From Nymphaea colorata (taxonomy: Eukaryota; Streptophyta; Magnoliopsida; Nymphaeales; Nymphaeaceae), in contig NC_045144.1 of the NCBI RefSeq assembly GCF_008831285.2, forward strand, positions 22,461,716 through 22,525,715: a stretch of DNA of 64,000 bases, read 5' to 3'. Position 1 is the first letter of the stretch, and the number at the start of each line of letters is the position of its first letter. Under the pieces are notes generated by a model that saw nothing but the letters and a program-made list of their open reading frames with translations, was not told where the DNA came from and did no database searches. A program made the translations under genes and the position numbers. Below are positions 5,466 to 60,540 of the stretch, in pieces.

Positions 5466-5832
5466 TGTTAACAGAAGTACCAAGAAGGCTCTCAAGGTGA
5501 ATTACTTAGGAGATAAAAAGTCATGTCTCTTAAGGGATGAAAAGTCATGTATGTTGGGAGATGAAAAGTCATGTCTCTTGGGAGATGAAAAGACATGTCT
5601 CTTGAGAGACGAAAAGTCATGTTTGTTGAAATATGAATAGTCATGTCTGTTGAAAGATGAAAAGTTGTCTCTTGGGAATTAGATACCCCTTATGTAACTT
5701 CTCTATATAAAGGCACCTCTCCACCAAAGGAATGCAAGCAAGAAATAATAGAGCAGTGGACATAGGCATATTGGCTGAACCACTTTAAAAATTCATGTCC
5801 CTTTAATTACTTTTTCATTTTGATTTCTAACA
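5466..5832 (+). repeat. Copia-1 3' LTR
   Basis: 367 bp, TGTTAAC...TAACA, with the same seven-unit 24-bp array (5512-5677). One unit has lost two bases. It differs from the 5' LTR at many scattered sites (roughly 5-6% by eye), so this is not a recent insertion. Confidence 0.92.
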
Positions 5833-6555
5833 CAGAGAACTCTACGGCGCAACCAAAGGTTTCAAGGAGGAGTTGGGGGAAGGAGGGTTTGGCAGTGTCT
5901 ACAAAGGTGTGCTTTCCAGGAGCGGAATCGAGGTTGCAGTTAAGAGAGTATCGCATGGTTCAAAGCAAGGGATGAGGGAGTTTGTGGTGGAAATATCAAG
6001 CCTGGGGAGGATGAGGCACAGGATCGTGGTCCAATTGCATGGTTGGTGTAGACGAGGCGATGACCTGCTCCTGGCTTATGAATTCATGCCATATGGGAGT
6101 ATAGACAATTTTCTTTTTGATGTGAAAGGTAGAAGCCTGAGTTGGGAACAGAGGTTCAAGATTCTAAAGGGAATTGCTTCCGGCCTGTTGTATCTTCATG
6201 AAGAGTGGGAGCAAGTGGTTGCGCACAGAGATGTTAAAGCAAGTAACGTGTTGTTAGATGGTGATCTAAATGGCAGGTTGGGTGATTTTGGTCTTTCCAG
6301 ACTCTATGAGCATGGGGCCAACCCCAAGACAACCCAAATCGTTGGGAGTTTTGGGTACATGGTGCCGGAGTTCTCCCGCACCTGGAAGTCCAGCACGAGT
6401 GCCAATGTCTACTCTTATGGTGCTTTGCTTCTAGAGGTGGCCTACGGAAGGAGGCCTATTGAGCCGGAGAGACATTGTGAAGAGATGGTTCTAGTGGAGT
6501 TAGTCCACTCTTTGTGGAAGGATGGACGTATACTGGACGCCATGGCAAAAGGCTT
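5833..6555 (+). pseudogene. LECRK: LecRK kinase domain, main part
   Basis: This is the cytosolic Ser/Thr kinase of the gene that starts at 570. It begins right after Copia-1 with [10 protein letters not shown], then the glycine loop [11 protein letters not shown] (from 5873), VAVKRVS with the catalytic lysine, HRDVKASN (catalytic loop), DFGLSRLY, and the P+1-side [12 protein letters not shown]. The LecRK signature [14 protein letters not shown] follows. Catalytic residues are present, but some conserved positions have drifted (RIVVQLHGW for the usual RNLVQLLGW; NVYSYG for DVFSFG). The frame runs into a stop at 6583 only because of a frameshift near 6545-6550. Confidence 0.9.
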
Positions 6556-6750
6556 GGGAATAGCTACGTGGTGGAGGAAGTAGAGCTTGTGCTGAAGCTT
6601 GGCATTCTCTGTTCACAGGCTGCACCTGAATCAAGGCCAAACATGCGGCAATTAACTCAGTATCTTGACCATGACGCCTCACTACCAGATCTAGAATGCC
6701 AGAATCTTGTTATTCAAGACGATCCAGGCTTGGACCAAATAATTGTGTAG
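6545..6750 (+). pseudogene. LECRK: LecRK kinase C-terminus and tail (shifted frame)
   Basis: In the frame of position 6514 the kinase continues as [23 protein letters not shown], then APESRPNMRQLTQYLD, which is the last kinase helix region of LecRKs, followed by a short acidic tail and a stop at 6748-6750. It is one frame away from the preceding block; the shift falls around the GGCAAAAGG stretch at 6546-6554. Together with the lectin-domain frameshift and Copia-1, this makes the locus a pseudogene unless the shifts are assembly errors. Confidence 0.85.
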
Positions 6751-12898: not shown

Positions 12899-13198
12899 TA
12901 TTAACTCAGCTGAAATACACTCCAAAGAAAATCAGTATACATTAGATGTATTATGAAATATTTTTTATATCAGGCCTTGCGTGAAAGATTAGAAGTGGCT
13001 AGGCATGCTGGAACTCGTGGTGGAGCAGAGCAATGCTGGAATTCGTGGTGGAGCAGTGCAACAACTATTTGTTATAACAGAAAATATCTTTTTAAGAACA
13101 TTCTTTTGTTTTTAGTATATAAAGCACAGTTGTGCTCATTGTAAAGTAGTGCGACAGAAAAGCACAAATAGAAAAATAGAAGTTCTCTCTTTCCTTTA
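12899..13198 (+). repeat. Copia-2 5' LTR
   Basis: 300 bp, TATTAACTC...TTTCCTTTA, followed at once by the primer-binding site. It includes a twofold repeat of about 29 bp (GCTGGAA/TTCGTGGTGGAGCAG, about 13009-13065) and a TATA-like element (TATATAAA, about 13117). Confidence 0.93.
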
Positions 13199-13211
13199 TG
13201 GTATCAGAGCT
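13199..13211 (+). other. Copia-2 primer-binding site
   Basis: TGGTATCAGAGCT directly after the LTR, matching the initiator-Met tRNA 3' end. Confidence 0.9.
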
Positions 13212-13227
13212 CGAGAGAGCAGCATCC

Positions 13228-14195
13228 ATGGCGTCTCCCATTGAAGCAGCAGTCACAAACTAGAAGTACTCCTACCCGTCCATGCTGAATGTGGCAAATT
13301 TTGTGTCCATAAAACTCTCCCCAATGAATTTCCTTCTCTGGAAGACCCAGGTTCTTGGTTTGATCGAGAGTCAAGATTTGCATGGATTCATCAATGACGA
13401 AATCTTTGTTCCTGATCAGTACATTATCAATGAAGATAAGCGAGAGATTAACCCAGACTACTTGCAACGGAAGAAATCGGACCGACTCCTACGTGGGTGG
13501 ATCATGGGCACCCTATCTGAAGAAGTCCTAGGGATCGTTGTTGGTTTGAAAACATCAGAATAGGTATGGAGGACACTCGAGGAGGCATACGCTTTGGATT
13601 CTCAAGAAAGAGAATGTTGTCTGCTACAAAAATTGCAGACACACAAAAAGAAGAATATGATTATGGCTGATTACATACGGATTTTCAAAAGTATTTGCGA
13701 TGAATTGCAGGCCATTGGATGACCGGTGAATGACCATACAAAGGTCTTTCTTCTCTTAAATGGATTGGGGCCTGAATATGAGTCGTTTGTGACGTCAATG
13801 TTGAAGCCCCCAATTCCTGTTTATAAGGACGTTATACCATTGCTACAAAGCCACGAAACATTGAAGTCACTCAATCAATATGAAGGAGAAATCCAGCACC
13901 AATCTTCATTTTATGCCCAAAGTCAGATGTTCTATGGTAAACGTGGAGGAAGAGGAAGACAATACTTCTCTTCTCAAGGCAGGGGTTTTATCCATATAAC
14001 CATGGGCAACAAGATAATCAAGGAAACATTGCCAAGGCTTCAACAAATCACAAGAAATTTACAGATGCCAAAAGAAACACCACAGTGAACAAAGAAAAGG
14101 GTATGGTATGCCAGATTTGCTTTAAATCGAATCACTCTACTCTTAGATGCTGGCACAGATTTGATAATGCATATAAGGTAGAAGAAGCTGCATAA
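13228..14195 (+). pseudogene. Copia-2 gag
   Basis: Gag forms the virus-like particle and binds RNA. From the ATG at 13228 the copia gag start MASPIEAAVTN runs into a stop within 12 codons, where Trp is expected. Coding resumes with VANFVSIKLSPMNFLLWKTQVLGLI. Further pieces are at 13726-14088 (FLLLNGLGPEYESFVTSML; a Gly/Arg-rich GKRGGRGRQYFSSQGRG) and a zinc knuckle CQICFKSNHSTLRC (CX2CX4HX4C) at about 14109-14150. At least three frame breaks separate them. Confidence 0.85.
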
Positions 14196-14213
14196 GCTTT
14201 AGCGGCAATAACT

Positions 14214-14652
14214 ATGGTTGATAACCAGGATCATGCCTGTTTTCCAAACTCTGGAGCGACTTCGCACATAGCATCATACTCAGGTATGCTTCTGAACACA
14301 ACCAAATATAGAGGTACAGAAAGAGTTATAGTGGAAAATGGACAATCTCTTAAGATTACACAAGTTGGAGAAGCAAAAATCGGCTCTAACCAAAATAGAT
14401 TAAAATAGATTAGAGTTGAAGAATGTTTTAGTTGTTTCTGAAATTAGAAGAAATTTGATTTCACTAAGTCAACTAATAAGAGACTTACCAGTGGATTTTT
14501 GTTTTTCGCATGACCATTTCCAAATTAAGATCAGGGAAACAAAGCGAGTGTTAGCTGAAGGACGTCGTCAAGGTGATCTTTACATGCATGACGTAGGAAT
14601 AAAGGAGGCATGTTTTTCAAACCATCAAAACATAGTCAGTTTGGAGATATGA
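14214..14652 (+). pseudogene. Copia-2 aspartic protease (active-site Asp changed)
   Basis: The protease cuts the gag-pol precursor. The active-site block reads FPNSGATSHIAS, with Asn (AAC at 14247-14249) where the family has the catalytic Asp of D-S/T-G. Downstream LKNVLVVSEIRRNLISLSQL is the usual region after the protease. A stop at about 14406 breaks the frame. Confidence 0.82.
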
Positions 14653-15801
14653 TACAGAAGGCTAGCTCATGTTAACTATAGTGTTTTGAAATTTCTAAAT
14701 AGATAAAAACAAATATGTAGTTTGAATGTTAAAGAGAAAAATATATGTGTTGGATGTTCTATGGCAAAATCTTCTCGTTTACCATTCTTTACTACAGATA
14801 AACAAGAGACACAACCTTTTGATATGCTCCACTGTGATTTATGGGGGCCATCACCAATAGTTTCAGTACAAGGGATGAGATATTATGCAATTTTTGTTGA
14901 TGATTCCACAAAATATTGCTGGATTTTTGCTCTAAGAGAGAAATCAGATTTTGTGTCTTGTTTTGAGAAGTTTATTGTATACATAAAGAATCAGTTCAAT
15001 AAAATGATCAAGATCATTCATTCAGACGGGGGAACAGAATTTGATAATAATAGAATGAAAAAAAAATTTGACGACAATGGAATTCGTCATATAATGTCTT
15101 GCCCATACACACCACAGCAGAATGGGCAAGCTGAAAGAAGACATCGAATTGTTACTGAGTTGGGTCTAGCGATGTTATTCTATGCAAATTTACCCCTAAA
15201 GTATTGGGTGGATGCATTTAACGCTGTTGTTTGGGTTCATAACAGAATTCCTACAACACTCTTGAATATGAAATTGCCTTATGAGAAGCTGTTTGGTGTC
15301 AGGCCTGAGTATGATTACATGAAAACATTCAGGTGCTTATGCTACCCATACTTGAGAGATTATGCCAGACATATGCTAGAACCAATATCATTACCTTGTA
15401 TATTTTTGGGTTACAACACTTTGCATAAAGGCAATAGATGTTTACACCTTAAATTAGGACGAGTTTACATCTCCAAGCATTGCATATTTGATGAACACAG
15501 CTTTCCATGCAAGAGTGTGGTAGACACAAAGGTTGAAAATGTTAGAACTCAGTACGATGCTTGGTTTCCTGAAAATGAAGAAACAAAGAAATACTTGGGT
15601 GCCAAGACACAAGAACAAGAACCTATGTCTGTTTTGTCAGAAAGTGAAATAGCCAAGATGCATGGAATAGAGGAAGTGGTTGGTGATGAACATAACCACA
15701 ATACTTCAAGCTCTCACATCAGAAGTTTGAACATTAATGAGCAGGAAAACAACAACTCACAGGAGACAGACACATTTGCAAATGAGCAAAACCTGAAGTA
15801 G
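14653..15801 (+). pseudogene. Copia-2 integrase
   Basis: The longest surviving frame of this element, 14722-15801, with 359 codons. The zinc-binding part (RLAHVNYSVL...CVGC) straddles a stop before 14722. The core has HCDLWGP, HSDGGTEF and QQNGQAERRH, with 35 residues between the second Asp and the Glu, as in active D,D35E integrases. The C-terminal part has FLGYNTLHKGNRC. This domain alone looks intact. Confidence 0.9.
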
Positions 15802-17400
15802 GCATAACACCAACTCTCATACAGTAGATTGAGACACGTTCGATGCATGGAATAGTTAAGCCCAACCCACTATACCTACTGTCATGTACATTACTTCCTA
15901 AAGAACCTGATTCTATCAAAGAAGCCTTATCACATAGAGGTTGGGCAGCTGCCATGAAGGAGGAGATGATGCTCTTAAAACCACTGAAACGTGGGACTTG
16001 GTTCCAAGAAAACATGCAAAACACATCATTGGATGCAAGTGGGTTTTCAAAGCCAAAGTTAAAGTGGATGGAAGCTTGGACATGTTGAAGGCGAGGCTTC
16101 TGGCAAAGGGCTACAACCAAATACCAAGAGTGGACTTCATTGAAACATTTTCACCCTTTATTAAGCCAACAACAATCGGAATTATATTTACTGTTGCCTT
16201 GTCAAGAAAATGGAGGATACATCAAATGTTCATCAAGAATGTTTTCCTCCATGGCGAACTAGATGAACCTGTCTTCATGGATCAGCCACCAGGATTTAGA
16301 GACCCAAATAAGCCTAACTACGTTTGTAGACTAAATAAGGCTTTATATGGGCTGCGTCAATCTGCAAGAATGTGGTTTGACAAATTCAGCAACTTTCTAA
16401 CAAATTATGGATTTTTCTGCAGTCCAGTAGACTCATCGCTGTTCATTTACAAAGGCAAGCATGGAACCATATTGCTGCTTTTATACGTTGATGATATTCT
16501 AATTACTGGTGATAGACAAGATATAATCATAAGTTTTATTGCAGATATCAGTTCAGCTTTGCTATGAAAGATCTAGGAGATGTCCATCACTTCCTAGGCA
16601 TACAAGTACAACAAGAAGAAGATGCCATATTCTTAAATCAAACAAGATATGCAAAGGAAATTCTTCAACATGCAAACTTGAGTGATTGTAAGCCTAGCAA
16701 CACACCTATGGCAGAAACTCCTCATTGCAATCAGTCGAGCCCATGTTTCCAAGTTGCCACATTTTTTCGAAGCATAGTAGGTTGTCTGCAATATCTTACC
16801 TTCACTCGTCCGGACTTGGCATACAGTGTCAATTTTGTGTCACAGTATATGCAATCACCATCTCAATAGTATATACAATCACCATCTCAATTCCATTTTC
16901 AATTAGTTAAGAAAATTCTCAGATATGTGAAGGCCACTATAGAACATGGACTCTGGATACAACCAACTGATTGCATGCTTCTTCAAGGGTACTCTGACAC
17001 TGATTCGGTTGGGTGTCCAATCACCCGATGTTCAACAACTGGATATGGCATTTATCTTGGCCCAAACTGCATCTCATGGTCTGCTAAGAAACAGCCGACA
17101 GTAGCACGTTCAAGCTCAGAAGCAGAGTACCGTGCATTAGCCTCGATAGTAGCAGAGATGACTTGGATCACTTATATATTGCATGATATTGGGGTTAGTC
17201 TATCCAAGACACCAATATTGTACTATGATAATATGTCTGCATTACACATGACCATTAACCCAGTAATGCACAACAGGTCCAAACACATTGAATTGGACTA
17301 CCATTATATCAGAGAAAGAGTTGCATCCAAACTCCTTGAAACTAGATATATCCCTTCAGCAGAACAGGTGGCAGATATCTTCACAAAACCATTGGGATGA
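15802..17400 (+). pseudogene. Copia-2 reverse transcriptase and RNase H
   Basis: Open pieces are 15941-16567, 16564-16869 and 16927-17400. Visible motifs: GCKWVFKAKV, KARLLAKGYNQ, DQPPGF, LNKALYGLRQSARMWF, YVDDILITGD, KDLGDVHHFLGIQVQ, TRPDLAYSV, then RNase H GYSDTDSVGCP, RSSSEAEYRALA, YYDNMSALHM, HIELDYHYIRE and the tail EQVADIFTKPLG. The first catalytic Asp block, normally LDVKNAFLHG, reads MFIKNVFLHG, so the Asp is lost. A repeated 'ATCACCATCTCAATAGTATATACA' type duplication breaks the frame near 16855-16890. Confidence 0.88.
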
Positions 17401-17454
17401 GCTCGATTTCTTTATTTAAGGAACAAACTTGGACTAAAGCTACAACACCCAATC

Positions 17455-17469
17455 CAGTTTGAGGGGGGA
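17455..17469 (+). other. Copia-2 polypurine tract
   Basis: CAGTTTGAGGGGGGA directly before the 3' LTR. Confidence 0.85.
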
Positions 17470-17768
17470 TATTAACTCAGCTGAAATACACTCCAAAGAA
17501 AATCAGTATCCGTTAGATGTATTATGAAATATTTTTGATATCATGCCTTGCGTGAAAGATTAGAAGTGGCTAGGCTTGTTGGAACTCGTGGTGGAGCAGA
17601 GCAATGCTGGAATTCGTGGTCGAGCAAAGCAACAACTATTTGTTATAACAAAAATATCTTTTTAAGAATATTCTTTTGTTTTTAGTATACAAAGCACAAT
17701 TGTGGTCATTGTAAAGTAGTGCGACAGAAAAGCACAAATAGAAAAATAGAAGTTCTCTCTTTCCTTTA
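17470..17768 (+). repeat. Copia-2 3' LTR
   Basis: 299 bp, TATTAACTC...CCTTTA. Against the 5' LTR I count about 13 substitutions and one indel, about 95-96% identity, so the element is clearly older than Copia-3. Confidence 0.93.
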
Positions 17769-41345: not shown

Positions 41346-41789
41346 GGCTTTCTTGGGTTGGAGAAGTCTGAACCTCAAAAATCAACAAAGTTGGAAAAAT
41401 CCCAAACCGAACACTCATTCTTGTAGTGCATTTGCTCATTAATCAAGAAAATTAGTATATCATGCATGAACATCATCTCAAGCATATAACAAGCATATTT
41501 ATTATAAATAAATGAAGAAATGGAATTTTATTTCACCTTGTTCATACTCCCGGTGCACTCAAGAGTAGGCTTTCTTGGGTTGGAGAAGTCTGAACCTCAA
41601 AAATCAATAAAGTTGGAAAAATCCCAAACCGAACACTCATTCTTGTAGTGCATTTGCTCATTAATCAAGAAAATTAGTATATCATGCATGAACATCATCT
41701 CAAGCATATAACAAGCATATTTATTAGAAATAAATGAAGAAATGGAATTTTATTTCACCTTGTTCATACTCCCGGTGCACTCAAGAGTA
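41346..41789. repeat. 222-bp tandem duplication, nearly identical copies
   Basis: 41346-41567 and 41568-41789 both run from GGCTTTCTTGGGTTGGAG to GGTGCACTCAAGAGTA. I see only a few substitutions, so the duplication is recent. Confidence 0.93.
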
Positions 41790-41837
41790 GCTCTTGACTC
41801 CAAAGAGGAAATCTTTAGAACTTTCTTGCACGGCCAT

Positions 41838-46260: not shown

Positions 46261-49200
46261 TATGTAAGTTTTAGTATAGTGCATGTGGTTAGTCAGTTCA
46301 TAAGAAACATGCTTTTGCACTCCATTGTTACTCTTTCATTTCTATTTGAACTTCTTTGTCCAGGCTTTCCTCTCTTTGGCATGCTTAACAGTTACTTCTG
46401 TTGAGCACATAGATTCTATCTGCTATTTCACTGTCTTTAGTTGCATAATAAACTAAGGTAATCAAACGTGCCATAGTTTCGTGCTGCATAACTGACATTC
46501 TCTAGACAGTAGAACCCTGTTAGTGCAGCAAGTGATAAACGGCCAAACGATGATCAGTCTTGCATAAATGAAACCAGGTCTTTAACTAAATGCACCTGAA
46601 GGTTCAGTCAAAATAGTAGTTGTAGTAATATATATTGTGATACTAGAAAGATATAGTAATTAGATAAAGATACAGGCTAAAAAAAAACTAAAACTGAGAC
46701 ATCAAAGGTGGCTTCATGATGCCTGTTTTAGCAAATGGTTTCAGCACTCATTTATGCATCAGATCTGCTAAAATTTAAATGTTCATATTTCTCAAATCAG
46801 GAGTTGGATATTGTGTCAACAAGTGGACTTGATTCAGATCGCAGCCATATATCTTTTTTAATTTTTAGGTCTGGCACATGGCATAGAATCCCATATTCTA
46901 GGCAGTTTTTTTATAAACATGGTGAAAGGTTGATCAACCATCCCCGTAGATTAAGATGGTGCAATACATGTCATGTCTAACAAAAGTAGTAATAGATAAG
47001 GCACTTAAAACATGAATAAAAGTTACTCCAATTTTATTTTTCTACAAACTAGAGGCCTTTCAGGGTAGAAGATGATGAACACTGTAATTAATACAGTATT
47101 TCTTTGGCATACATTATTGTATCATATAATTACTTTACTTTGAAGGGTCAGCCAAACCCCAGCTTGGTTTTGCAAAAAAAGCTTGGATAAATTGAGAATG
47201 GTTGAGTCTTTGACGATTCATGTATTAATAAGGCAAATTTTGCTAAAGGAAAACTACTTGAGGGTGGATTTGATTCAGATCTGCTCCATTCGGATCCATT
47301 TGAGTGATCCACAAAACAATACCATGACCTGTTTCTTCAAGGTACAAGAGGCTCTTCAGTTTTTTTCTTCATTCTGTTGATATAATCAACTTGATGTGAG
47401 AACATAGTCTTGCTTTCCTTCTAAAATATCAATATAATAAGAGAAAAGTGCTATCTTATGTTTATAAATTTTTAGTAAACCAACTTGAACACAAGTACGT
47501 GCAAAAACCACTTCTAGATTTTATGTGCTGAGATCAGTCATGTTTCTACACCAAACAAACAGTTTTATAACTATGTCACATGGATGCAGTGTGCGGGTGC
47601 GAGATGCAGCAAGGTCCAAAAAAACTTTGGTGTGGGTGCAAACAGAATGAAGAAACAGAAATATAAAATATCATAGGATGACTTGATGACAACAAAAAAC
47701 AAAAAATGATTGGAAATCAGCTGGAGTCACCAAAATGTTCAAAAGAGGGAATCGGCGGTAGTTGGGGAAAATGGGTAAATCAGCTAACGCTTTTCAATTG
47801 AATGTTGGGAATGTCTATTTGAGATGTGGGGAGGGGAAAACCGTCATCTAACCAGTAGGTTGGCCGAAAAACAACGTGAAATCCAGCAAAAATAGTGTGA
47901 AGGGCATCGGCTGATGAGGGAGTTGAGTGGACCTACCTGAACCAAGTGGACATCGAGGAAGCCCTGTGGCACATAGGGACTGGAGCAGTCAGGTAGGCAT
48001 CAAAAATTTGACCAAAGAGGCACGACAGCACCCAAGAGTCAGTGTTTGCCGGTGAGTTTTAGGATGCTGGAAAGAAGAAATTTGTCAGAGAGAACCATGA
48101 TTTGCTGAAAATCTTTGTCGGCTGTTGGAAACAAGCTTCTCACGAACCGCAGGAGCAGCAGTCTTTGTCGACCGTCAGCAGCTGAAGGGCTTCAATGAAG
48201 CCCTAATACGAGAGAATAAGACCCTTGTTTGACAAGGGTTTATGATTTTTCAAGTTTAAAAAAGGAAATCACTAAAAAGAGGACATATTTGTCCTCCGCT
48301 TGTCCTGACCACACCCAACTCGTCATTGACCAGAGTTGGGTGCACCTCCGATGTGCCATCTTTTCCAACAGGTGTGGTAGACTGCTCTGGGCATGTGTTG
48401 ACCATGTCGAGTGCCATATCTGGCTGCACCCGCTTCGGTGAGGATGCAGCGGCCAGTTTGCTGAATTCTTATGACATAGATTTACACTTTTATCCTTTAT
48501 TGGATGCACATTGAATTTTTGAACTTACGTGCAGCGGCCTGTTTACTGAATTCTTATGACATAGTTTTACACTTTTATCCTTTATTGGATGCACATTGAA
48601 TTTTTTAACTTACGTGGATTGGAAAAGTTTGTTTCTAGATGTTTCTTAGGTTGTTATGTTACAAAAAATTGGCTCTTTGTGAAAAAAATTTCATACATAA
48701 TACCACTTCATTCTTAATGGGTCACCTTTTATATATATATATATACATATATATTTGTTTTAAGGTGTTTCACATGAGATTCCATTCTCCTTTTGTATAC
48801 AAAAGGAATATTAACCATTTTTAGCTGATGAAGTCTGGTGTTTGGGAAGATTGGTGAAGATGGTGTTTTTCATAAACGTCTTAATGAGGAGAACATTCAT
48901 ACAATGAAGGATATTATGGCATTTCTATCTATCGATTTTCATAGGTTGAGGAGCATAATTTTCTTCATTCTTTTGTCTTTCTTCTCAAGTGCTTTGAGCT
49001 TTCCATGGCAATGACCCTTCTTATTCAGACACTTGCATTAAATGCTGGACTAGATGAAATGTACTTCAATTTGGGGTTCGATAATGGTTAATTTATTTTA
49101 TCAGATTAGTAAGCTCTTGCAAAAGAACTAGTATGTCACGATGACTATTTTTCTTCATCTCTCTCCTTTTTCGTAAATTACTACTATATGATCTCTTGTG

Positions 49201-49902
49201 GCACAATTGGTTTTTTCTTTGAATTCCATTACGTTGTGCTCAGCTTTCTAGAGATGGTTCAATAAAGAAGCCTAACCAAAAATGTTTTTCCAAATTCAAT
49301 TGAAGGTGGTGAATTGGTTAATATTGATATACTTCTTTATGGCACTACAATCACATACGCGGCATAATATAGGTTTTTGGATATGCTCTGAGATTTCCTT
49401 TTCATCCTAATGACAGTTTTCCTATTTGGACTGAACATTTACAATAATTAAGTTATGCAGATGCCTCCAGCTAAGTTTGAAGCTTTACTAACTCAGTTAT
49501 TGCCTAGATATGTATATAACTTAATCCTATCTCAGTTCTGGTCAGCTCTATATTGGAGATCTAAAGATACACCACTCCTTATTTTGCTTAGCATTATATC
49601 ACCATCTGATGGTGACAAACAACATTATAATCATGATGTTCTTCATTGTCAACATCATATTAATTGCATATACTTGTTTTGTTTGAGAAATAATTTGGTT
49701 GAAGTGTATTTGCATTACTATATTGACAACACTAAGTCTGGCATTATCTAGTCACTTGAAAATTGTGAAATTGAAACTATCTTTGAGATATATGCTTGAT
49801 ATGTTTGATTTTACCTCAGCTTAGTAGTCATTCCAAGCATTGAATCTTGCTGGTTTATTTCTGCTCTGTGATGTGATCGTTGTTGTCATGCTGCTTTTGT
49901 TT
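46261..49902. other. Unassigned DNA left of Copia-3
   Basis: No gene recognised apart from the small tandem repeat at 48446. A splice-like piece (GCAG|ATGCCTCCAGC...ACTCAG, 49458-49497, MPPAKFEALLTQ) might be an exon, but I cannot connect it to a known protein. Confidence 0.3.
48446..48615. repeat. 85-bp tandem duplication
   Basis: 48446-48530 and 48531-48615 both start GCAGCGGCC and contain GAATTCTTATGACATAG and CCTTTATTGGATGCACATTG. Only a few differences. Confidence 0.92.
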
Positions 49903-50067
49903 TGATAAGATTAGAAAGAATAATCTTTGATCAACTACGAAATCTGCCCTAACTCCTCTTTATATAGACTAGAGGAGAGAGAGAAGTTACAAGAGAAACA
50001 TCTAAAGGAAAAGTTATTACAAAAGTACCCTCTTAAACCTAAAACTGAATATAAACACATCTTAACA
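49903..50067 (-). repeat. Copia-3 3' LTR
   Basis: 165 bp, on the minus strand TGTTAAGATGTG...CTTATCA. A TATA-type element (minus TATATAAAGAGG) lies at about 49958-49970. Identical to 54932-55096. Confidence 0.95.
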
Positions 50068-50082
50068 CTCCCCCTCAAGTTG
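50068..50082 (-). other. Copia-3 polypurine tract
   Basis: On the minus strand AACTTGAGGGGGAG lies directly before the 3' LTR. It overlaps the end of the gag-pol stop region. Confidence 0.9.
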
Positions 50083-53000
50083 GAGCGTATATGTCAAATA
50101 GGCTCAACTTGGAACAGCAGCTTTGGAATGGTCCCCTTGCAAGAGCCTTAGTAAAGATATCAGCCGTTTGCCCTGTAGTTGAAATGTGTGAGGTACTTAC
50201 AAACCCCTTTTGAATCATGTCTCTAGTATAGTGACAATCTACTTCAACATGCTTGGTTCTTTCATGAAAAGCCGGATTATTAGCAATAAACAGTGCAGCT
50301 TTGTTATCACATAACAGTTGCATAGGAAGAGGCACTTCGACAGTAAGATCCAACATCAGGGATCTAACCCACATAACTTCAGCAGTACCCTGAGCCATAG
50401 CTCTATACTCAGATTCTGCACTTGATCTGGCAACCACAGTTTGCTTCTTACTCTTCCATGTAACCAAGTTGGATCCAATAAACACACAAAATCCAGTAGT
50501 GGATTTTCTGTCTGAGGGGCATCCTGCATAGTCGGCATCAACATACACAGATATAGTGAGTGAGGTACCATTCTGAAAGAAGAGTCCCGTTCCTGGTGAA
50601 TTCTTTAGATACCTAAGAATCATCATAGCAGCATCCCAATGAACTTTCTTGGGCTTATCCATAAATTGACTCACTCTGCTAACAGCATAGGCAATGTCAG
50701 GTCGAGTAACAGTGATGTATAGGAGCTTCCCAACAATCCCTCTATACTGTCTTGCATCAACATCTTCAGTATCATCATCATACAAGCGGGTATTGATATC
50801 CATAGGCGTGGATGCAGGCCGACACCCCAGCATCCCTGTCTCTTGCAAAACATCAGTAACGTATTTCCTCTGGCACATGATAAGGCCCTTTTGATTTCTG
50901 GCAAACTCAATACCAAGGAAATAACGTAGTTCACCAAGGTCCTTGGTGACAAAGTGTTGTCCAAGGACATCCTTGATGTTGGAAATCCCCTGATCATCAT
51001 CCCCTGTAACAATGATATCATCAACATAAACAAGAACTATCACCGTACCTGTAGAAGTCTTCTTGACAAAGAGGGAATGGTCGGCCGAAGAACGTCTGAA
51101 GCCCTCATTCTCAATATTCTCTGACAATTTCTGAAACCAAGCTCGAGGACTCTGTTTCAGACCATAAATCGCCTTTCGCAATCTGCACACTTTCTGACAC
51201 TCCCCCTCAGCAACAAACCCTGGTGGTTGCTGCATATACACTTCTTCATGTAAGTCACCATAGAGAAAGGCATTTTTGACATCAAGCTGTGAGAGGGACC
51301 AATTCTTGCTGACAGCCACAGCAAGGAGAATCCGTAAGGAAGCATGTCGTGCCACAGGAGAGAAGGTATCATAATAATCAACCCCATAAGTTTGGGTATA
51401 GCCTTTTGCAACCAGACGAGCCTTATATCTGTCAATACTGCCATCTGCTCGGTATTTGATAGTAAAGACCCATCTGCAACCAACAATGGCTGCATCAACT
51501 GAAGGAGTAACAAGGGTCCAGGTGCCTCTAGACTGAAGAGCATCCATCTCTTCTTGCATAGCCGCTGCCCATTTGGGATCAGAGAGAGCATCCATGGGAT
51601 TCTGTGGAAGAGCAATAGCCGACAGCCCCTTGACAAACTGTCGGTACATAGGGGTGAGTCTATCCATGGATAAATGACCAGAGATAGGATGCAAAGTGCA
51701 ACTACGTTTGCCTTTCCTTTGAGCAATGGGCACATCAAGTTCATTAGGAGCAGGAACATGCTCGTGACATACTCCTATGTCATCATTACAGAAAACATTG
51801 TCAGTTGAGTTTGTGTCAGGAATTACCTTGGGCGTGCTGGGTGAAGGCACAGGTGCACATTGAACAGGCGCAGCAGGCTTAGTACGACGATGGTAGACAG
51901 CCCCAAAACGTGGATCAACTGGGTTTGGACAACTCATGAGAGGTAGAGGAAATTGGACTTCATCATTTAATGCAGGCGCCCTTAATTGAGTTCCATTTGG
52001 GGAGAAGAAAGAGGTTGATTCAAAAAATGTAACATCAGCACTCACATAATACCGACGAGTAGAAGGATCATAACATCGATATCCCTTTTGAGTGCGGGAA
52101 TAACCAACAAAGATCGTTTTGATGGCCCGAGGAGACAACTTATCTCGCCCAGGACCAAGCAACTGAACAAAGGCAACACATCCAAAAACACGAGGTGGAA
52201 CAGAAAACAAGTCTCTGTCAGGAAAGAGGACAGAGATAGGAATAAGGTCTCCCAACACAGATGACGGCATACGATTAATAAGATAGCATGCTGTGAGAAC
52301 AGCATCGCCCCAGTAAGAATGGGGAACATGGCTATGTATGATAATGGTTCTGGCAACATCAAGAATATGACGGTGTTTCCGTTCAGCAACCCCATTTTGT
52401 TGGGAGGTATAGGCACAAGAAGTTTGGTGGATGATACCCTTATCCCTGAAAAATTGTTCCAAAGAGGAAGCACAGAACTCAAGAGCATTGTCAGAGCGCA
52501 CAATTTTGACACAAGTATCAAACTGAGTCAGAATTTCATTGATAAAATTTTTGATTACATGACCCACTTCAGATTTATGCTTCATAAGAAAAACCCAACT
52601 AACACGACTATAGTCATCGACAGCAACAAGATAATATCGATGACCTTGAAGAGCAGGTGTACGACTCGGACCCCAAACATCAAAATGAAGTAACTCAAAC
52701 ACAGAATGGCTACTTCGACTGGGCCGCGGAGGAAAGGATGACCTATGGTGTTTGCCCAACTGACAAGACTCGCATTGAAAAGAAGACTTGGGAGACAACT
52801 GAGGAAGAACATGCAGCAGTTTCTGAAACGGTAGATGTCCAAAACGTAAATGCCAAGTATAAGCCGAGGATGAGGACGACCCTGCAGAGGTAGATCCAGC
52901 AAAGGGAAAGGGATGCACTAGCCTGTAAAGACCTCCCTGTTCACGGCCACTGCCAATCACCCTGCCCGTCAGTATATCCTGAAACACAAGAGAAGAGGAG

Positions 53001-54280
53001 TCAAATATCGCACGACAGTTTAAATCTCTGGTAATCTGACTGATAGATAGTAGGCTATGTGGGAATTCTGGTGCATGAAGAACATGTTGCAATGGTAATG
53101 ATGAAGTAAGTTGGACCTCTCCAAGTCCAACAACGGGAGAATATTTGCCATCTGCTAGAATAACCGAGCGACCAGGTGGAGTAGGGACATAAGAAGTAAA
53201 CTGTGCCTTGTCTCCACAGAGATGTGTCGATGCACCCGAATCAATGAGCCAATCTGTAGTGTCAGAATACATACCAGATGAAGATGCACTGGCAGCAGTA
53301 GTGATAGTAGAGGTGGTCGGATCAGGAGCTTGTTGAGGTCTATCTCCAATCAAGTGTCTCAACTGAGAGATAATATCATCTGCACGTAACTCACTGGAGG
53401 AAACAGGATGTTGAGTCTTAGGCTGCTCTGGAGAATCAGTAAAAACAGTCTGATTGGCAACAGCTGGACGACCATGTTTCTGCCAACACTTATCCACAGT
53501 GTGACCAATGCGATGACAAAACTGACATACTGGGCGCGAAGGGGTATTGCCACGGCCACGGTATCCTCGTCCTCTGGCAAAGAGGGACCCACCTCTGCCA
53601 CGAGTAGCAAGCATAGCAGAAGTGGTATCAAGAACAGTCGATGAAGGGATTGGAATTCTGCTTAGCCTACTATAAGCTTCATCAATAGGAGGAATCGAGG
53701 GACTAGTGAGCATCTGATTCTTTGCTGATTCATAAACAGAGTCTAATCCAGACAGAAATACTCCGACCATAAGCATATCTCTGTATGCCTTCTGTTGCTC
53801 ACACTTACATGCAGGAAAGTAGCTGTTTAGTCTCTCAAACATGGACTTGAGACTAGAATAATAAGTATGTAGAGGGCGACCATCTTGGCGCATCTGATGA
53901 ATATCATGATGAAGCTGCATAATTCTGGTTTCATTCCTTGCTTGTGAATAGGTGGCTGCAAGGGAATCCCACATATCCTTTGCACTTTCCTTATGCAGGA
54001 CTTCATTGGCAATGTCTTGAGTAAGAGTACCAACAATCCATACCATAACCAACGAATTATCTTTAAACCAAGTAGTATATTTTCCTACCTTCTGTACGGG
54101 CTCGGGCTCCAATATAAGATGTTCCTTCTCATGAGCGATCAAGGTTCTTTTTACTTGCATGGCCCACATCTCGTAATTACCCCCATCCATTTTGGTGATA
54201 AAGCTGGAAAATGGGGAACTCTTCATCTCTCCCGACGACACAAAGGAAGAGGTATTAGCGCCGCTGCTAATTTCAGACAT
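50075..54280 (-). CDS. Copia-3 gag-pol polyprotein, complete (1401 aa)
   Basis: One uninterrupted frame encodes the whole replication machinery. Domains in order: gag (1-250, W39 region to Arg/Gly-rich 227-244), zinc knuckle C252-C255-H260-C265, protease DSGAS at 347-351, integrase zinc-binding H477, H482, C503, C506, integrase core D534, D597, E633 (exactly 35 residues between the last two), RT with D1000 in LDVKNAFL and YVDD at 1085-1088, and RNase H with D1248, E1289/E1291 and D1325, ending in QTADIFTKAL (1371-1380). Length and order are normal for plant copia. Gag and pol share one frame with no stop between them, as in most plant copia elements. The start at 54280 is the first ATG giving the full gag N-terminus. 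No missing catalytic residue was seen. Confidence 0.97.
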   Translation of the reverse strand: MSEISSGANTSSFVSSGEMKSSPFSSFITKMDGGNYEMWAMQVKRTLIAHEKEHLILEPEPVQKVGKYTTWFKDNSLVMVWIVGTLTQDIANEVLHKESAKDMWDSLAATYSQARNETRIMQLHHDIHQMRQDGRPLHTYYSSLKSMFERLNSYFPACKCEQQKAYRDMLMVGVFLSGLDSVYESAKNQMLTSPSIPPIDEAYSRLSRIPIPSSTVLDTTSAMLATRGRGGSLFARGRGYRGRGNTPSRPVCQFCHRIGHTVDKCWQKHGRPAVANQTVFTDSPEQPKTQHPVSSSELRADDIISQLRHLIGDRPQQAPDPTTSTITTAASASSSGMYSDTTDWLIDSGASTHLCGDKAQFTSYVPTPPGRSVILADGKYSPVVGLGEVQLTSSLPLQHVLHAPEFPHSLLSISQITRDLNCRAIFDSSSLVFQDILTGRVIGSGREQGGLYRLVHPFPFAGSTSAGSSSSSAYTWHLRFGHLPFQKLLHVLPQLSPKSSFQCESCQLGKHHRSSFPPRPSRSSHSVFELLHFDVWGPSRTPALQGHRYYLVAVDDYSRVSWVFLMKHKSEVGHVIKNFINEILTQFDTCVKIVRSDNALEFCASSLEQFFRDKGIIHQTSCAYTSQQNGVAERKHRHILDVARTIIIHSHVPHSYWGDAVLTACYLINRMPSSVLGDLIPISVLFPDRDLFSVPPRVFGCVAFVQLLGPGRDKLSPRAIKTIFVGYSRTQKGYRCYDPSTRRYYVSADVTFFESTSFFSPNGTQLRAPALNDEVQFPLPLMSCPNPVDPRFGAVYHRRTKPAAPVQCAPVPSPSTPKVIPDTNSTDNVFCNDDIGVCHEHVPAPNELDVPIAQRKGKRSCTLHPISGHLSMDRLTPMYRQFVKGLSAIALPQNPMDALSDPKWAAAMQEEMDALQSRGTWTLVTPSVDAAIVGCRWVFTIKYRADGSIDRYKARLVAKGYTQTYGVDYYDTFSPVARHASLRILLAVAVSKNWSLSQLDVKNAFLYGDLHEEVYMQQPPGFVAEGECQKVCRLRKAIYGLKQSPRAWFQKLSENIENEGFRRSSADHSLFVKKTSTGTVIVLVYVDDIIVTGDDDQGISNIKDVLGQHFVTKDLGELRYFLGIEFARNQKGLIMCQRKYVTDVLQETGMLGCRPASTPMDINTRLYDDDTEDVDARQYRGIVGKLLYITVTRPDIAYAVSRVSQFMDKPKKVHWDAAMMILRYLKNSPGTGLFFQNGTSLTISVYVDADYAGCPSDRKSTTGFCVFIGSNLVTWKSKKQTVVARSSAESEYRAMAQGTAEVMWVRSLMLDLTVEVPLPMQLLCDNKAALFIANNPAFHERTKHVEVDCHYTRDMIQKGFVSTSHISTTGQTADIFTKALARGPFQSCCSKLSLFDIYAPT

Positions 54281-54918
54281 CGCTCAACACAATGGAGGAA
54301 AACCGAGCCACGGAATAGGAAGTGCAGGCAAAAAAGAAGACAATCACATATCGAAAGACAACATGCTGATCATGAAGCAGTTAACACGGGCAGCAATCCA
54401 TAAGTCTGATCGGCTGGAAGAGGCAACAACAGAACTGAACGAAGACAGATTACCAGAGGCGACAGCGAAGACGCTGAGAGGAAAAATCAGCGTGCAGAGC
54501 AGCGGCGGAGTAGAGGAGGCGATGCAGCGAAGACGCTGAGAAGAAAATCAGCGCGCAGCGGCAGCGGAGAAGCAACAGTGACAGACGGCGGCGGCGGGCG
54601 GAGGTGACAGCCACGGCAGGCAGCGGCGAAGATGACTGCAACAGCGGACGGAGGCGTCGGGCGGAGAAGACAGCAACGGGCGGAGGCGTCGGGCGGAGAA
54701 GACAGCAACGGGCGGAGGCGTCGGGTGGAGAAGACAGCAACGGACGGAGGCGTCGGGCGGAGAGGTCAGGACAGCGACTGGCAGAGGCGTCGGGTGGAGA
54801 GGTCAGCGACGGGCGGAGATGGGTGGACACGAGCGGGTGGAGGAAGCGCAGCGATGGGCGCGGTCAGGCGGCGGGCGGCGCCGCTCAATCGGCGCGCCAA
54901 GGAGGAGGAGACGGCTGC
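54281..54918 (-). other. Copia-3 untranslated leader
   Basis: About 640 bp between primer-binding site and gag ATG, unusually GC-rich compared with the rest of the window because of the minisatellite at 54644-54817. RNA of this region is expected to carry packaging and dimer signals, but I cannot point to them. Confidence 0.75.
54644..54817 (-). repeat. GC-rich 32-bp minisatellite in Copia-3 leader
   Basis: About five units of GCGGAGGCGTCGGGCGGAGA plus 'agacagcaacgg' (plus-strand sense). The first three are near-identical and the last two carry substitutions and a short insertion. Confidence 0.9.
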
Positions 54919-54931
54919 TGCTCTGATACCA
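54919..54931 (-). other. Copia-3 primer-binding site
   Basis: On the minus strand TGGTATCAGAGCA follows the 5' LTR directly, matching initiator-Met tRNA. Confidence 0.95.
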
Positions 54932-55096
54932 TGATAAGATTAGAAAGAATAATCTTTGATCAACTACGAAATCTGCCCTAACTCCTCTTTATATAGACTA
55001 GAGGAGAGAGAGAAGTTACAAGAGAAACATCTAAAGGAAAAGTTATTACAAAAGTACCCTCTTAAACCTAAAACTGAATATAAACACATCTTAACA
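54932..55096 (-). repeat. Copia-3 5' LTR
   Basis: 165 bp, no difference seen from 49903-50067 when compared base by base by eye. Confidence 0.95.
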
Positions 55097-55639
55097 TGTT
55101 TTGATGTGGCAGTATGTTTTCTTTCCACTGTAACATGATCATGTGTCAATCTTTCTTTGAATTTGTTGGGAGACAGGAATGAGCTTCAATGAAGCTGCAA
55201 GGCTCTTACAACTGGTAGATTCACTCTCTCTCTCTCTCTCCCTCTTTCTCTCTCTCTCTCTTGTGATAGTCAACAATACCTTTTTTTTTCAATAATCTAA
55301 AGACCCTACAAGAATTATGACATATAGTAATGCAAAAATACCAATCGTTACAATAAGTATGGGACTTTTCCAACGCAATGTGAAATTAATGAAAGATATA
55401 TCAGTATCATTACTAGACTCTTATCCTTCATTTGTTTGATGTTTGTTAGCTTACTGTGCTTCATTCTCTGTTGGATGAGTTATCCCCTAACTACTAACTA
55501 TTTGATATCACATGAAACATCTTATCTTCGACAATGACAGCTCTAGGCACTTGGTGGTGTCCTCTATTCTTTACTGAGATTATTTACTAAGACTTCTTTG
55601 TTCACGCACATGCAATAAATTACTTGAGGCATTTAGTGA
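55097..55639. other. Unassigned DNA right of Copia-3
   Basis: A splice-like piece AGACAG|GAATGAGCTTC...CAACTG|GTAGAT (about 55173-55210) could be a small exon (GMSFNEAARLLQL in one frame). A CT microsatellite follows at about 55220-55262. No protein match is recognised. Confidence 0.3.
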
Positions 55640-57717: not shown

Positions 57718-58203
57718 GTTGTGGGCACTGGGCAATTAGTAATGAAATCAAGGAAGTCATGGACGAGCCAACAAGGCGCCAAGGGCCAAAGGGCAATGGG
57801 CGACAGATGCTCAGTAAGGCTCTTTCTCTCTCTTCTTCTTCTTCTAATTATTATTATTGTTCATATGATTAGTTTGATTTGGGCATTTCTATTTAAACTT
57901 TCTGCTTACTGTTTTAGGGATTTCAATTTGCCCCTTTTGATTACTAATTTTGGGGTTTGTGGGCACTGGGCAGTGAAATCAACTAATCAATGGATGACTG
58001 ATGAGACCACAAGGGCCAAAGGGCGATGGCTAGCTGATGCTTCATGGACGCTTACTCGCACAATAAGTCACTCTCTTCTTCTTCTTCTTCTTTGTGGTTT
58101 CTAAGATAAGTTTGATTTGGACATTTCTATTTAGGCAATTGAGATTTTTTATTACTGTTTTGAGGATTTAACTTTACCGCTTTTGGTTGCTGATTTTGGA
58201 GTC
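57718..58203. repeat. Tandem duplication of about 240 bp
   Basis: Copy 1 (about 57718-57957) and copy 2 (about 57958-58203) share GTGGGCACTGGGCA, GGGCCAAAGGGC.ATGG, a CTTCTTCTTCTT run, AGTTTGATTTGG.CATTTC and TTTTG.TTACT.ATTTTGG. Identity is moderate, so it is old. Confidence 0.8.
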
Positions 58204-58996
58204 TGAGTTTGCCCCTTATGATTTTGCTTACGTTGAAATTAATTAGACGGTCTTAAATATAATCTCCAGTGGTCAGTCTTAATTTTCTCATTTAAATGAG
58301 ATGTGTGAAGAAAGTACCTGTGTGTCTGTAGTCGTGTTAACATTGAGAATAACATTGGCACCTTAAAGATACCATTTTCTCTCTTATTTATTTTTTATCC
58401 ATCACTATAATGATTTGATTTTTCTTGTTGGGATCAATTGTAAGTTTTCCATAACTATAATTATTTGTTTTATTATAAAAGTAATTTCCAATTTAAGTCA
58501 AAAGATGTCTTATAAGATATGTATTAGTGCGCCACAGCCAAAAACTTTTAACTCCGCCTTTGCTTAAAAACCATTTCAACATGCTACAACTGACACAACT
58601 GACAACGGCTGCCATTGGCTAGCCGTTAGGGCAAAAGCCATTGCGAATAACCTTACGCTACTGCAAGTGGGCTATGGGCAAAAGTATTGGTGGTTGCGAG
58701 GAGCTAGTTTTGCACGTCAATAACAGCTACCATCAGATGTGAACTTGTTAGTAAATTGTTGTCGCTAATAAAAAAGTTTAGTTCTGTTTCAAGAAATTTT
58801 GGTAGCCAATAGATGAACTTATTAGTAAATTGTGGTTGCTAATAATTTTTGTTATTTTCCTGAATTTTTTTCAGTTTTTGTTACTTGACGTACAACGTAT
58901 CTGCCTATGGGTGACCGTCAAACACATGTTCCGCAAGTCACATGCATATTTTTAGTTAGTTGAATGCAAATAACGGGCATTTTACTAGTATGCCAA
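58204..58996. other. Unassigned DNA
   Basis: No gene. A short direct repeat, TTAGTAAATTG plus 'tggtTGCTAATAA'-type words, occurs at about 58748-58771 and 58821-58844. Confidence 0.35.
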
Positions 58997-60540
58997 GAAA
59001 ATAAAGGTAGCCTATAAAATTCATTAGAAAAGGACTGAACCAACCATTGGACTATCAGATTTAAGGATGACATATCTATATAGGAAAACTGAAATCAGAC
59101 GTCCATTTCTGTGGCCGGAAGGTTTTTTTTTTTTTTAATTTTGTTTTGTTAAAATCTGTCACAATAGAGGTTGTAGTGCAGTGAGTAGCAAGGCAGTCCA
59201 CCTTTAAGAGGTTTGAGGTTCACATCATGTAGTCGTTGTCACGACCCAGTATGCTCATGGTATGGATCGTAATAGATCCCAACACAAGCTCTGTGAACAC
59301 TAAGGGTGATGGGCACAGGTGGGAGAAAGTTGCATCTCTTCACGGGGGTGGAAAAAAACCAGTCTCCGTGAAAAATAAAAAAAGAATTATTGCTCTTCTT
59401 CAATTAATAATGCAGAAATCTAAAGTGCGTGGCAAAAATCATTTGATATCTTGGTTGAGATATTTTCGATGGCTATTCTTCAGCATGTATAAATAATTTA
59501 TTTAGTAAATTCAAAAGAGAAAAAAGGGGGAACTTTTTCTTTTTTTTCTTTTTGTGAATATGCACTCTTTAGGCCGAATGGCTTCATATATATCTCCTCC
59601 TTCCTTTTTGTTCGTCATCAGGCAGTCAGTATTTTTGTGTATTCTTCACAAAACATCTGCCTCGGTTGGGGAATGATATGTTTGAAGCTGACCTCTTCCC
59701 CCATGTTTAATGGTGGCAGTGGTGATATGATTTTCAGTTCAAGAAAGTAGTACCCATGGAAATCAAGCTGATGACATACCGTTTACATGCCAGCCGGTTC
59801 TACCAGCTATGCTACACCCTTTGTTAGAACTCCTTGAACATGTCAAATAAGTTATATGGTCGTCTAATACAGCACCTATTCCTAACCTATTTACTAAGCC
59901 TGAGCCCACTTTCGAATATAAATTTTCATTAGATCAAAATCCAGTTACTGAAACAGAATCTGAAATCCATTTAGAAACAGATCCAGACATCACTTTTGGC
60001 ATAATCCTCACCCGGATCCAAATGCTTCTGTGTTTAAGTTATACGTATCTGCCAGCATTATTTCAGCTGTCGGATTTGAAAATTCAAACCAAAACCCAGT
60101 TGGAAAAAGCGGTTCTGTTGGACATATGTTCAAATAAGAAGCTGATCACATGCATCCGTCGTCGTAGCTCTTTTTCGCTCTCCGGCATGGAGAAATGATG
60201 GAACGTGAATGGTGAACAATAATGCAACATGCTGAAGGTTATATATATTTTTAAGTCTTCATTAAACGAAGGATCCTTTAATTTGAAAAGCTAATTAAAT
60301 GACAAAAACACATTTATATATCACAAAGCACAAAATTAACAAAGGACATAATTTAATCAAACCGACAGCATCAAAATTAAGAAATATGGATCTAAAATGG
60401 AGCATTCTTTTTTTGTCCCATGATTATGATTTACTTGCATCTTTTTGAAAAAACAAATGACGGAAGAATGATAAGCGTAGAAATGGAAAGTATAGGAATG
60501 AGTGCATAATGTTTGATGTACGACATAATTTTCATAGACC
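58997..60540. repeat. Large duplicated block, copy 2
   Basis: Collinear with 36940-39650 (see copy 1). This copy lacks the hAT MITE and the adjacent 550 bp. Instead it holds a 220-bp insert at about 59168-59385. Confidence 0.85.
59168..59385 (+). mobile_element. Candidate tRNA-derived SINE
   Basis: The insert is absent from the homologous block at 37093. It starts GGTTGTAGTGCAGTGAGTAGC (box A-like), has GAGGTTTGAGGTTCACATC (box B-like) about 45 bases on, and ends in GTGAAAAATAAAAAAAG. The size and A-rich tail fit a SINE, but the boxes are imperfect and no target duplication was seen. Confidence 0.35.

Follow-up and report, generated by a model that had tools for sequence, protein, structure and literature searches.

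The window, by which we mean the whole analysed stretch of 64,000 nucleotides from Nymphaea colorata (C7:22461716-22525715, in a genome of 407.8 Mb and 783 contigs), contains a Ty1/copia element of 5194 bp at positions 49903-55096 on the minus strand, exactly the coordinates assigned to it by the original prediction. The element is bounded by two long terminal repeats (LTRs) of 165 bp, the 5' LTR at 54932-55096 and the 3' LTR at 49903-50067, both on the minus strand, and outside them by two copies of the 5-bp target duplication TGTTT (copy 1 at 55097-55101, copy 2 at 49898-49902). As had been noticed by eye, the duplication is perfect and the LTRs show no difference, being the same at 165 of 165 bases. 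An exact repeat of this length together with a flanking duplication is far beyond chance.

Read along the minus strand, the LTRs have the termini TGTTAAG...CTTATCA, that is, TG...CA ends. The 5' LTR is followed without a gap by the primer binding site (PBS) TGGTATCAGAGC (54920-54931, minus strand), which presumably fits the initiator-methionine transfer RNA (tRNA); at no more than one mismatch this motif has three matches in the window, one of them at the element, against 0.18 expected from shuffles. Then come a GC-rich leader (54281-54931, 651 nt including the PBS), an open reading frame (ORF) of 1401 codons plus stop (50075-54280) and a polypurine tract (PPT) region CTCCAACTTGAGGGGGAG (50068-50085), which overlaps the stop codon and lies directly before the 3' LTR, all of them on the minus strand.

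The ORF is one open gag-pol frame with six Pfam matches, all over the curated cut-offs and all on the minus strand. In the order of the polyprotein they are Retrotran_gag_2 (53663-54088, residues 65-206, E 1e-7), Pol_BBD in the protease region (53027-53251, residues 344-418, E 2.1e-15), gag_pre-integrs (52748-52900, residues 461-511, E 2.6e-10), the integrase core rve (52406-52699, residues 528-625, E 1.7e-11), SH3_retrovirus (52007-52192, residues 697-758, E 9.9e-24) and the reverse transcriptase (RT) domain RVT_2 (50801-51523, residues 920-1160, E 4.7e-76). A zinc knuckle CX2CX4HX4C is located between the first two (53486-53527, minus strand, residues 252-265), the protease motif DSG occupies residues 347-349, and YVDD residues 1085-1088. 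The integrase triad D,D35E consists of D534, D597 and E633, with 35 residues between the last two and E633 just past the rve match, while RNase H is recognised by its motifs alone (DAD, AESEY and CDN). Catalytic roles are assigned to the protease DSG, the integrase D/D/E, YVDD and the RNase H residues. Thus, the intact gag-pol described originally, with all these motifs in an open frame, is indeed there. In a search of solved structures the closest chain was the integrase 7z0h (E 2.8e-16), which we take to be that of Ty1.

The TG...CA LTRs around an internal region, the PBS beside the 5' LTR and the PPT beside the 3' LTR, the integrase upstream of RT (by Pfam) and of RNase H (by motifs only), the copia-type RT with YVDD, and the 5-bp duplication with an identifiable empty site (see below) are all copia features. 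We conclude that the window almost certainly harbours a structurally complete, young Ty1/copia retrotransposon, and that the family to which it belongs has recently dispersed across all fourteen large contigs.

For both the RT piece (1001 bp; 40 of 1318 first-look candidates scored) and the gag piece (40 of 161 first-look candidates scored), all 40 scored places were 99-100% identical over about 1 kb, and these copy counts are lower bounds. Family copies were found on each of the contigs C1-C14 as well as on small contigs. The sequence of 50 copies was read (44 in a first batch and six later), representing 49 insertions: L046 and L050 are a single insertion in an inverted duplicated segment, and there was no other such pair among the 94 flank pieces compared. 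The 5-bp target duplications match in all 47 copies with both flanks read. A whole-protein search found gag-pol without an internal stop in 28 of the 33 copies scored, and with one in the other five. Coding spans were read for 24 copies (the window element and L031-L053): the frame is open over 1401 codons in 14 and over 1398 in one, seven are broken by a stop, frameshift or deletion, and the remaining two, which do not enter the 22-copy coding comparison used below, have a large deletion (L032) or are split by an inversion (L035). Among complete LTR pairs 36 of 44 are identical, with six substitutions in 7233 bp. These counts leave out four copies in which one LTR is missing or incomplete in the sequence read (L081, L091, L093 and L094) and two with an incomplete 5' LTR (L100/L101 and L102/L103), each of which has at least one LTR difference in the part read.

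The element had been singled out as the one with mobile potential in a window where every other element is broken. The latter part fits as far as copia elements go, the other copia matches in the window being scattered over several frames (tblastn); the former holds at most inside the window, given the stop-free copies and identical LTR pairs just counted. Comparison of genome copies, proposed at the time as a check, yields dozens of near-identical siblings, many with open frames, so that what looked singular within one window becomes ordinary once the genome is searched. Variable coding sites common to at least two copies are distributed over codon positions 1, 2 and 3 as 10, 6 and 23 (p = 0.002), a lean towards the third position such as selection on the transmitted lineages would produce.

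The insertion had been called recent on the grounds of LTR identity. The zero differences are real, but at 165 bp they are weak evidence when taken alone. At substitution rates of 7e-9 and 2.5e-9 per site per year the upper age from identical 165-bp LTRs is 1.3 and 3.6 million years (My), respectively. Even at 1.3e-8 per site per year, the rate used in PMC3701649, up to 0.70 My is allowed. The recent date is borne out chiefly by empty-site paralogues and by the count of private substitutions. Elsewhere in the genome both flanks of the element are matched at 11 places, of which C7 has ten and C676 has one. At ten of these 11 the two flank matches overlap by exactly 5 bp and the element is absent, and at the eleventh one match is shorter. 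Eight of these ten empty sites were read, and TGTTT is present as a single copy in seven of them and as TGCTT in one. The nearest empty-site paralogue differs from the window flanks at 11 of 1194 sites (about 1%). The element has two private substitutions in 4206 coding bp (22 copies), against nine in 1200 bp in the flanks (compared with eight paralogues), so that the rate-free ratio is 0.063 (95% range 0.007-0.31). The insertion would then have taken place after the host segment and the nearest paralogue read had separated, its age being about 0.06 of the time elapsed since that split. Converted with a rate of 1.3e-8, the private count corresponds to about 37 thousand years (ky), and with 2.5e-9 to about 190 ky.

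From these data we infer that this element, or one of its close siblings, still moved no longer ago than roughly tens to a few hundreds of thousands of years, and its gag-pol proteins are presumably functional, as judged from sequence. That it is instead an old copy, whose LTRs owe their identity to gene conversion or to collapse in the assembly, is scarcely credible: two 165-bp LTRs are easily homogenised, and the assembly of 783 contigs holds at least one duplicated copy, but the whole coding span is near-identical to its siblings, with far fewer private substitutions than the flanks, the element is absent from paralogues diverged by only about 1%, and most complete LTR pairs of the family are identical as well. 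The burst is well dated, the empty-site paralogues serving as an internal clock that is independent of LTR divergence.

Several points weigh against this account of the element. The absolute ages hinge on the substitution rate assumed for the host. The empty sites are paralogues within one genome and not alleles. The choice of copies by similarity over-represents young, intact ones. Private variable coding sites are distributed over codon positions as 28, 30 and 47 (p = 0.044), while pure neutrality after insertion predicts no lean. Finally, recombination within the family, as described for Onsen (PMC5668417), could make both the tree and the dates less distinct.

As a copia element, the one in the window is of a known type and ordinary; the part worth following is a two-base hotspot in its LTR. 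Among the elements with which it may be compared, Onsen of Arabidopsis is of copia type as well. Onsen has been amplified in bursts, similarly to the window family, and its intra-family recombination, also within LTRs, complicates LTR-based dating (PMC5668417). With plant Ty1/copia elements, as outlined in PMC6317226, the window element shares the polyprotein with integrase before RT, the TG...CA LTRs, the 5-bp duplication, the PBS and the PPT, and its anatomy departs in nothing from the type given there. TARE1 of tomato (194-bp LTR, about 4.7 kb) is likewise a burst of short-LTR copia elements with many intact copies; according to PMC3701649, however, its LTRs start with TA and its PBS is TGGTATCAAGAA, in contrast to the TG ends and the PBS TGGTATCAGAGC here. 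The TARE1 insertions dated there are mostly 0.75-1.75 My old, compared with a mean of 23 ky at the same rate for 40 pairs of the window family, whose copies were picked by similarity.

Variation along the LTR of this family is strongly uneven. In the 44 copies, with one LTR from each, we observed six variable sites among the 129 positions 1-129 and 12 among the 36 positions 130-165 (Fisher p = 1.6e-5); when both LTRs of all 50 copies are included, the difference shrinks to 13 of 129 and 12 of 36 (p = 0.0014). The excess peaks at positions 131-132, which in the window element correspond to 54965-54966 in the 5' LTR and to 49936-49937 in the 3' LTR (minus strand). On the tree of 22 coding spans, site 132 requires seven parsimony steps and site 131 three, whereas 138 of the 144 variable coding sites change once on the same tree, six change twice, and none more often. 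With an average of 0.036 steps per coding site, the Poisson probability of seven steps at one site is near 1e-14. Bases 130-132 in the 50 copies read GAG (n = 35), GAT (n = 6), GTT (n = 4), GTA (n = 2, including the window element), GAA (n = 2) and AAT (n = 1). Position 131 is altered only together with position 132 (six of six; Fisher p = 0.0004 in 44 copies), and for the A at 130 ordinary CpG decay may suffice as a cause, one copy having this A in one LTR only. The two LTRs of a copy agree at 131-132 in all 44 complete pairs; hence the change precedes or accompanies integration. Just past the LTR there is little variation: over the first 26 positions, 40 copies show three variants, each confined to one copy. 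This comparison is ungapped, and beyond these 26 positions a few copies with indels upset it.

The position of the hotspot relative to the promoter suggests its origin. The putative TATA box TATATAAA occupies LTR positions 102-109 (54988-54995 in the 5' LTR, minus strand), and 131-132 lie 29-30 nt below its start. Transcription would begin at the G at LTR position 133, 31 nt below the start of the box, in which case 132 and 131 would be the last two bases of U3. The pattern at 131-132 is strong, and for its mechanism we infer errors made during reverse transcription, at the first strand transfer, which the genomic copies of this family probably record; recurrent change, shared by both LTRs, indeed falls on what would be the end of U3. 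With transcription starting at this spot, minus strong-stop DNA would end here before its transfer to the other end of the RNA. On reaching the RNA 5' end, it could have the last one to three U3 bases (132, 131 and perhaps 130) rewritten, either by untemplated addition or by copying of the cap, the latter yielding the common G at 132. The altered end would then be extended on the other end of the RNA, and the new bases would enter both LTRs. Addition or miscopying of one, two or three bases would affect just these positions, nested outward.

Errors at first strand transfer are a known process in retroviruses. Kulpa and others are said to have described strand-transfer-associated errors in murine leukaemia virus in 1997, and Mules and others reportedly found untidy ends in Ty1 in 1998. 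A similar case, with frequent mutation beside the transcription start, is the U3-R junction of human immunodeficiency virus 1 (HIV-1), where PMC12172438 ascribes it to guanosine cap copying together with RT error. The data described there come from passaged virus, whereas here natural genomic copies of a copia family are considered, with T and A besides G at the presumed last U3 base. In the literature searched, with thin coverage of subscription journals and partial texts, no such footprint in natural genomic copies of plant copia elements was recognised.

The recurrence at 131-132 could alternatively result from a few old haplotypes reshuffled by recombination between co-packaged RNAs. Such exchange, also within LTRs, is reported for Onsen (PMC5668417), the haplotypes do recur in different parts of the tree, and with little variation elsewhere in the LTR an exchange would be hard to see. 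Nevertheless, we consider this explanation unlikely, as the excess is sharply local while the coding sites change once or, in six cases, twice, five 131-132 haplotypes occur among copies differing at only a few coding sites, and 131 never changes without 132.

Still less probable is that R and U5 are simply more tolerant than a promoter-held U3, so that 131-132 would be neutral sites in a relaxed stretch. Positions 133-165, beyond 130-132, are more variable than U3 (9 of 33 and 6 of 129 in 44 copies, p = 0.0005; 9 of 33 and 13 of 129 with all 50 copies and both LTRs, p = 0.02), as this explanation would have it. However, U3 varies at least as much as the coding span does (3 of 129 and 144 of 4206 in 22 copies) and so is not unusually held, and seven steps at one site are far above the neutral coding level.

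The strand-transfer explanation has difficulties of its own. The elevated variation in the rest of 133-165 is less directly explained by it, and recombination of the Onsen kind (PMC5668417) could have shuffled old haplotypes anew. The older copia element at 12.9-17.8 kb of the window has few relatives, mostly on one contig, and provides no second-family replicate; hence the hotspot rests on one family. With parsimony under a midpoint root, the changes at 131-132 are A>T (three), G>T (five) and G>A (two), in contrast to three G>T and four A>T among 108 private coding substitutions (Fisher p = 3.5e-7). This polarity hinges on where the root is placed, and copying of the cap should push towards G, so we do not rely on it.

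If errors at first strand transfer are indeed the cause, the transcription start of a retrotransposon would be readable from genome sequence alone, and each insertion could carry a small tag of its replication cycle. Any young LTR family could then map its own transcription start and provide an estimate of natural RT end errors without RNA work.

In the Ty1/copia cycle the 5' LTR drives transcription, one Gag-Pol polyprotein is made and packaged with the RNA, reverse transcription is primed at the PBS and proceeds through two strand transfers, and integration generates the 5-bp duplication. The window element would have spread by this standard cycle. No related loci in viral contigs were confirmed.

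The leader is a second fast-changing feature of the family, besides the hotspot in the LTR. Including the PBS, it takes 15 different lengths from 604 to 734 nt in the 19 copies measured, a set that does not include L049. The lengths apparently change by gain and loss of units in a GC-rich array of 32-bp tandem repeats, which in the window element has 5.3 units (54645-54818, minus strand). The leader was also considered as a structured packaging signal and rejected in this role, since its fold is weaker than that of shuffled sequences (z = +2.89; 20 of 20 shuffles fold at least as well).

Several other copies have individual peculiarities. In L106/L107 (C1 near 22.08 Mb) the two LTRs are identical at 138 bp, positions 52-78 (27 bp) are gone from both, and the target duplication matches; the loss must have occurred before or with integration. 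This copy is not TATA-less, as was supposed at one point: the missing 27 bp leave the TATA box in place. At L035 (with L054 and L055; C7 near 9.67 Mb) an inversion with one break inside the element has turned round the 3' LTR, the duplication and some of the flank. L037 and L052, with the duplications GTTTT and CATAA, are separate insertions into one type of repeat: their sites almost coincide in two of its diverged members, with flanks that are 84% and 75% alike.

The surroundings of the element in the window are themselves repetitive, and no tRNA genes or Rfam families were found in the window. The flanks 49600-49902 and 55097-55400, together with 58200-59200, recur, 76-99% alike, at about ten places on C7 (at 1.0, 13.3-13.5, 22.3, 23.0-23.3 and 24.2-24.5 Mb), with one or two small contigs in addition. 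They make up a family of segmental duplications that is largely specific to C7, the length of the segments being perhaps tens of kb. A piece of the central domain of a calmodulin-binding protein (E 6.9e-7), which we take to be of the CBP60 type, lies at about 48847-48960, some 1 kb away from the element. It is probably a gene fragment, as a frame change seems to be needed by eye. We also considered insertion of the element into an intron of a working gene and rejected it, since in three plus-strand frames scanned on either side the sole Pfam match nearby is this apparently frameshifted fragment.

The older copia element occupies 12899-17768; its LTR pieces are 95-97% alike without gaps and its frames are broken. 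Of the 27 genome matches of its LTR, 19 are on C7 (two being the window's own), unlike the dispersed young family. At the beginning of the window, the ORFs 549-1463 and 5831-6583 resemble by eye the two parts, lectin and kinase, of a lectin receptor kinase. Between them lies a degenerate copia element, in which positions 1985-1996 are an exact PBS-type sequence and each end carries 24-bp tandem repeats. Tandem duplications are present at 41346-41790 (222 bp twice, 99% alike) and at 48445-48616 (85 bp twice, 95% alike).

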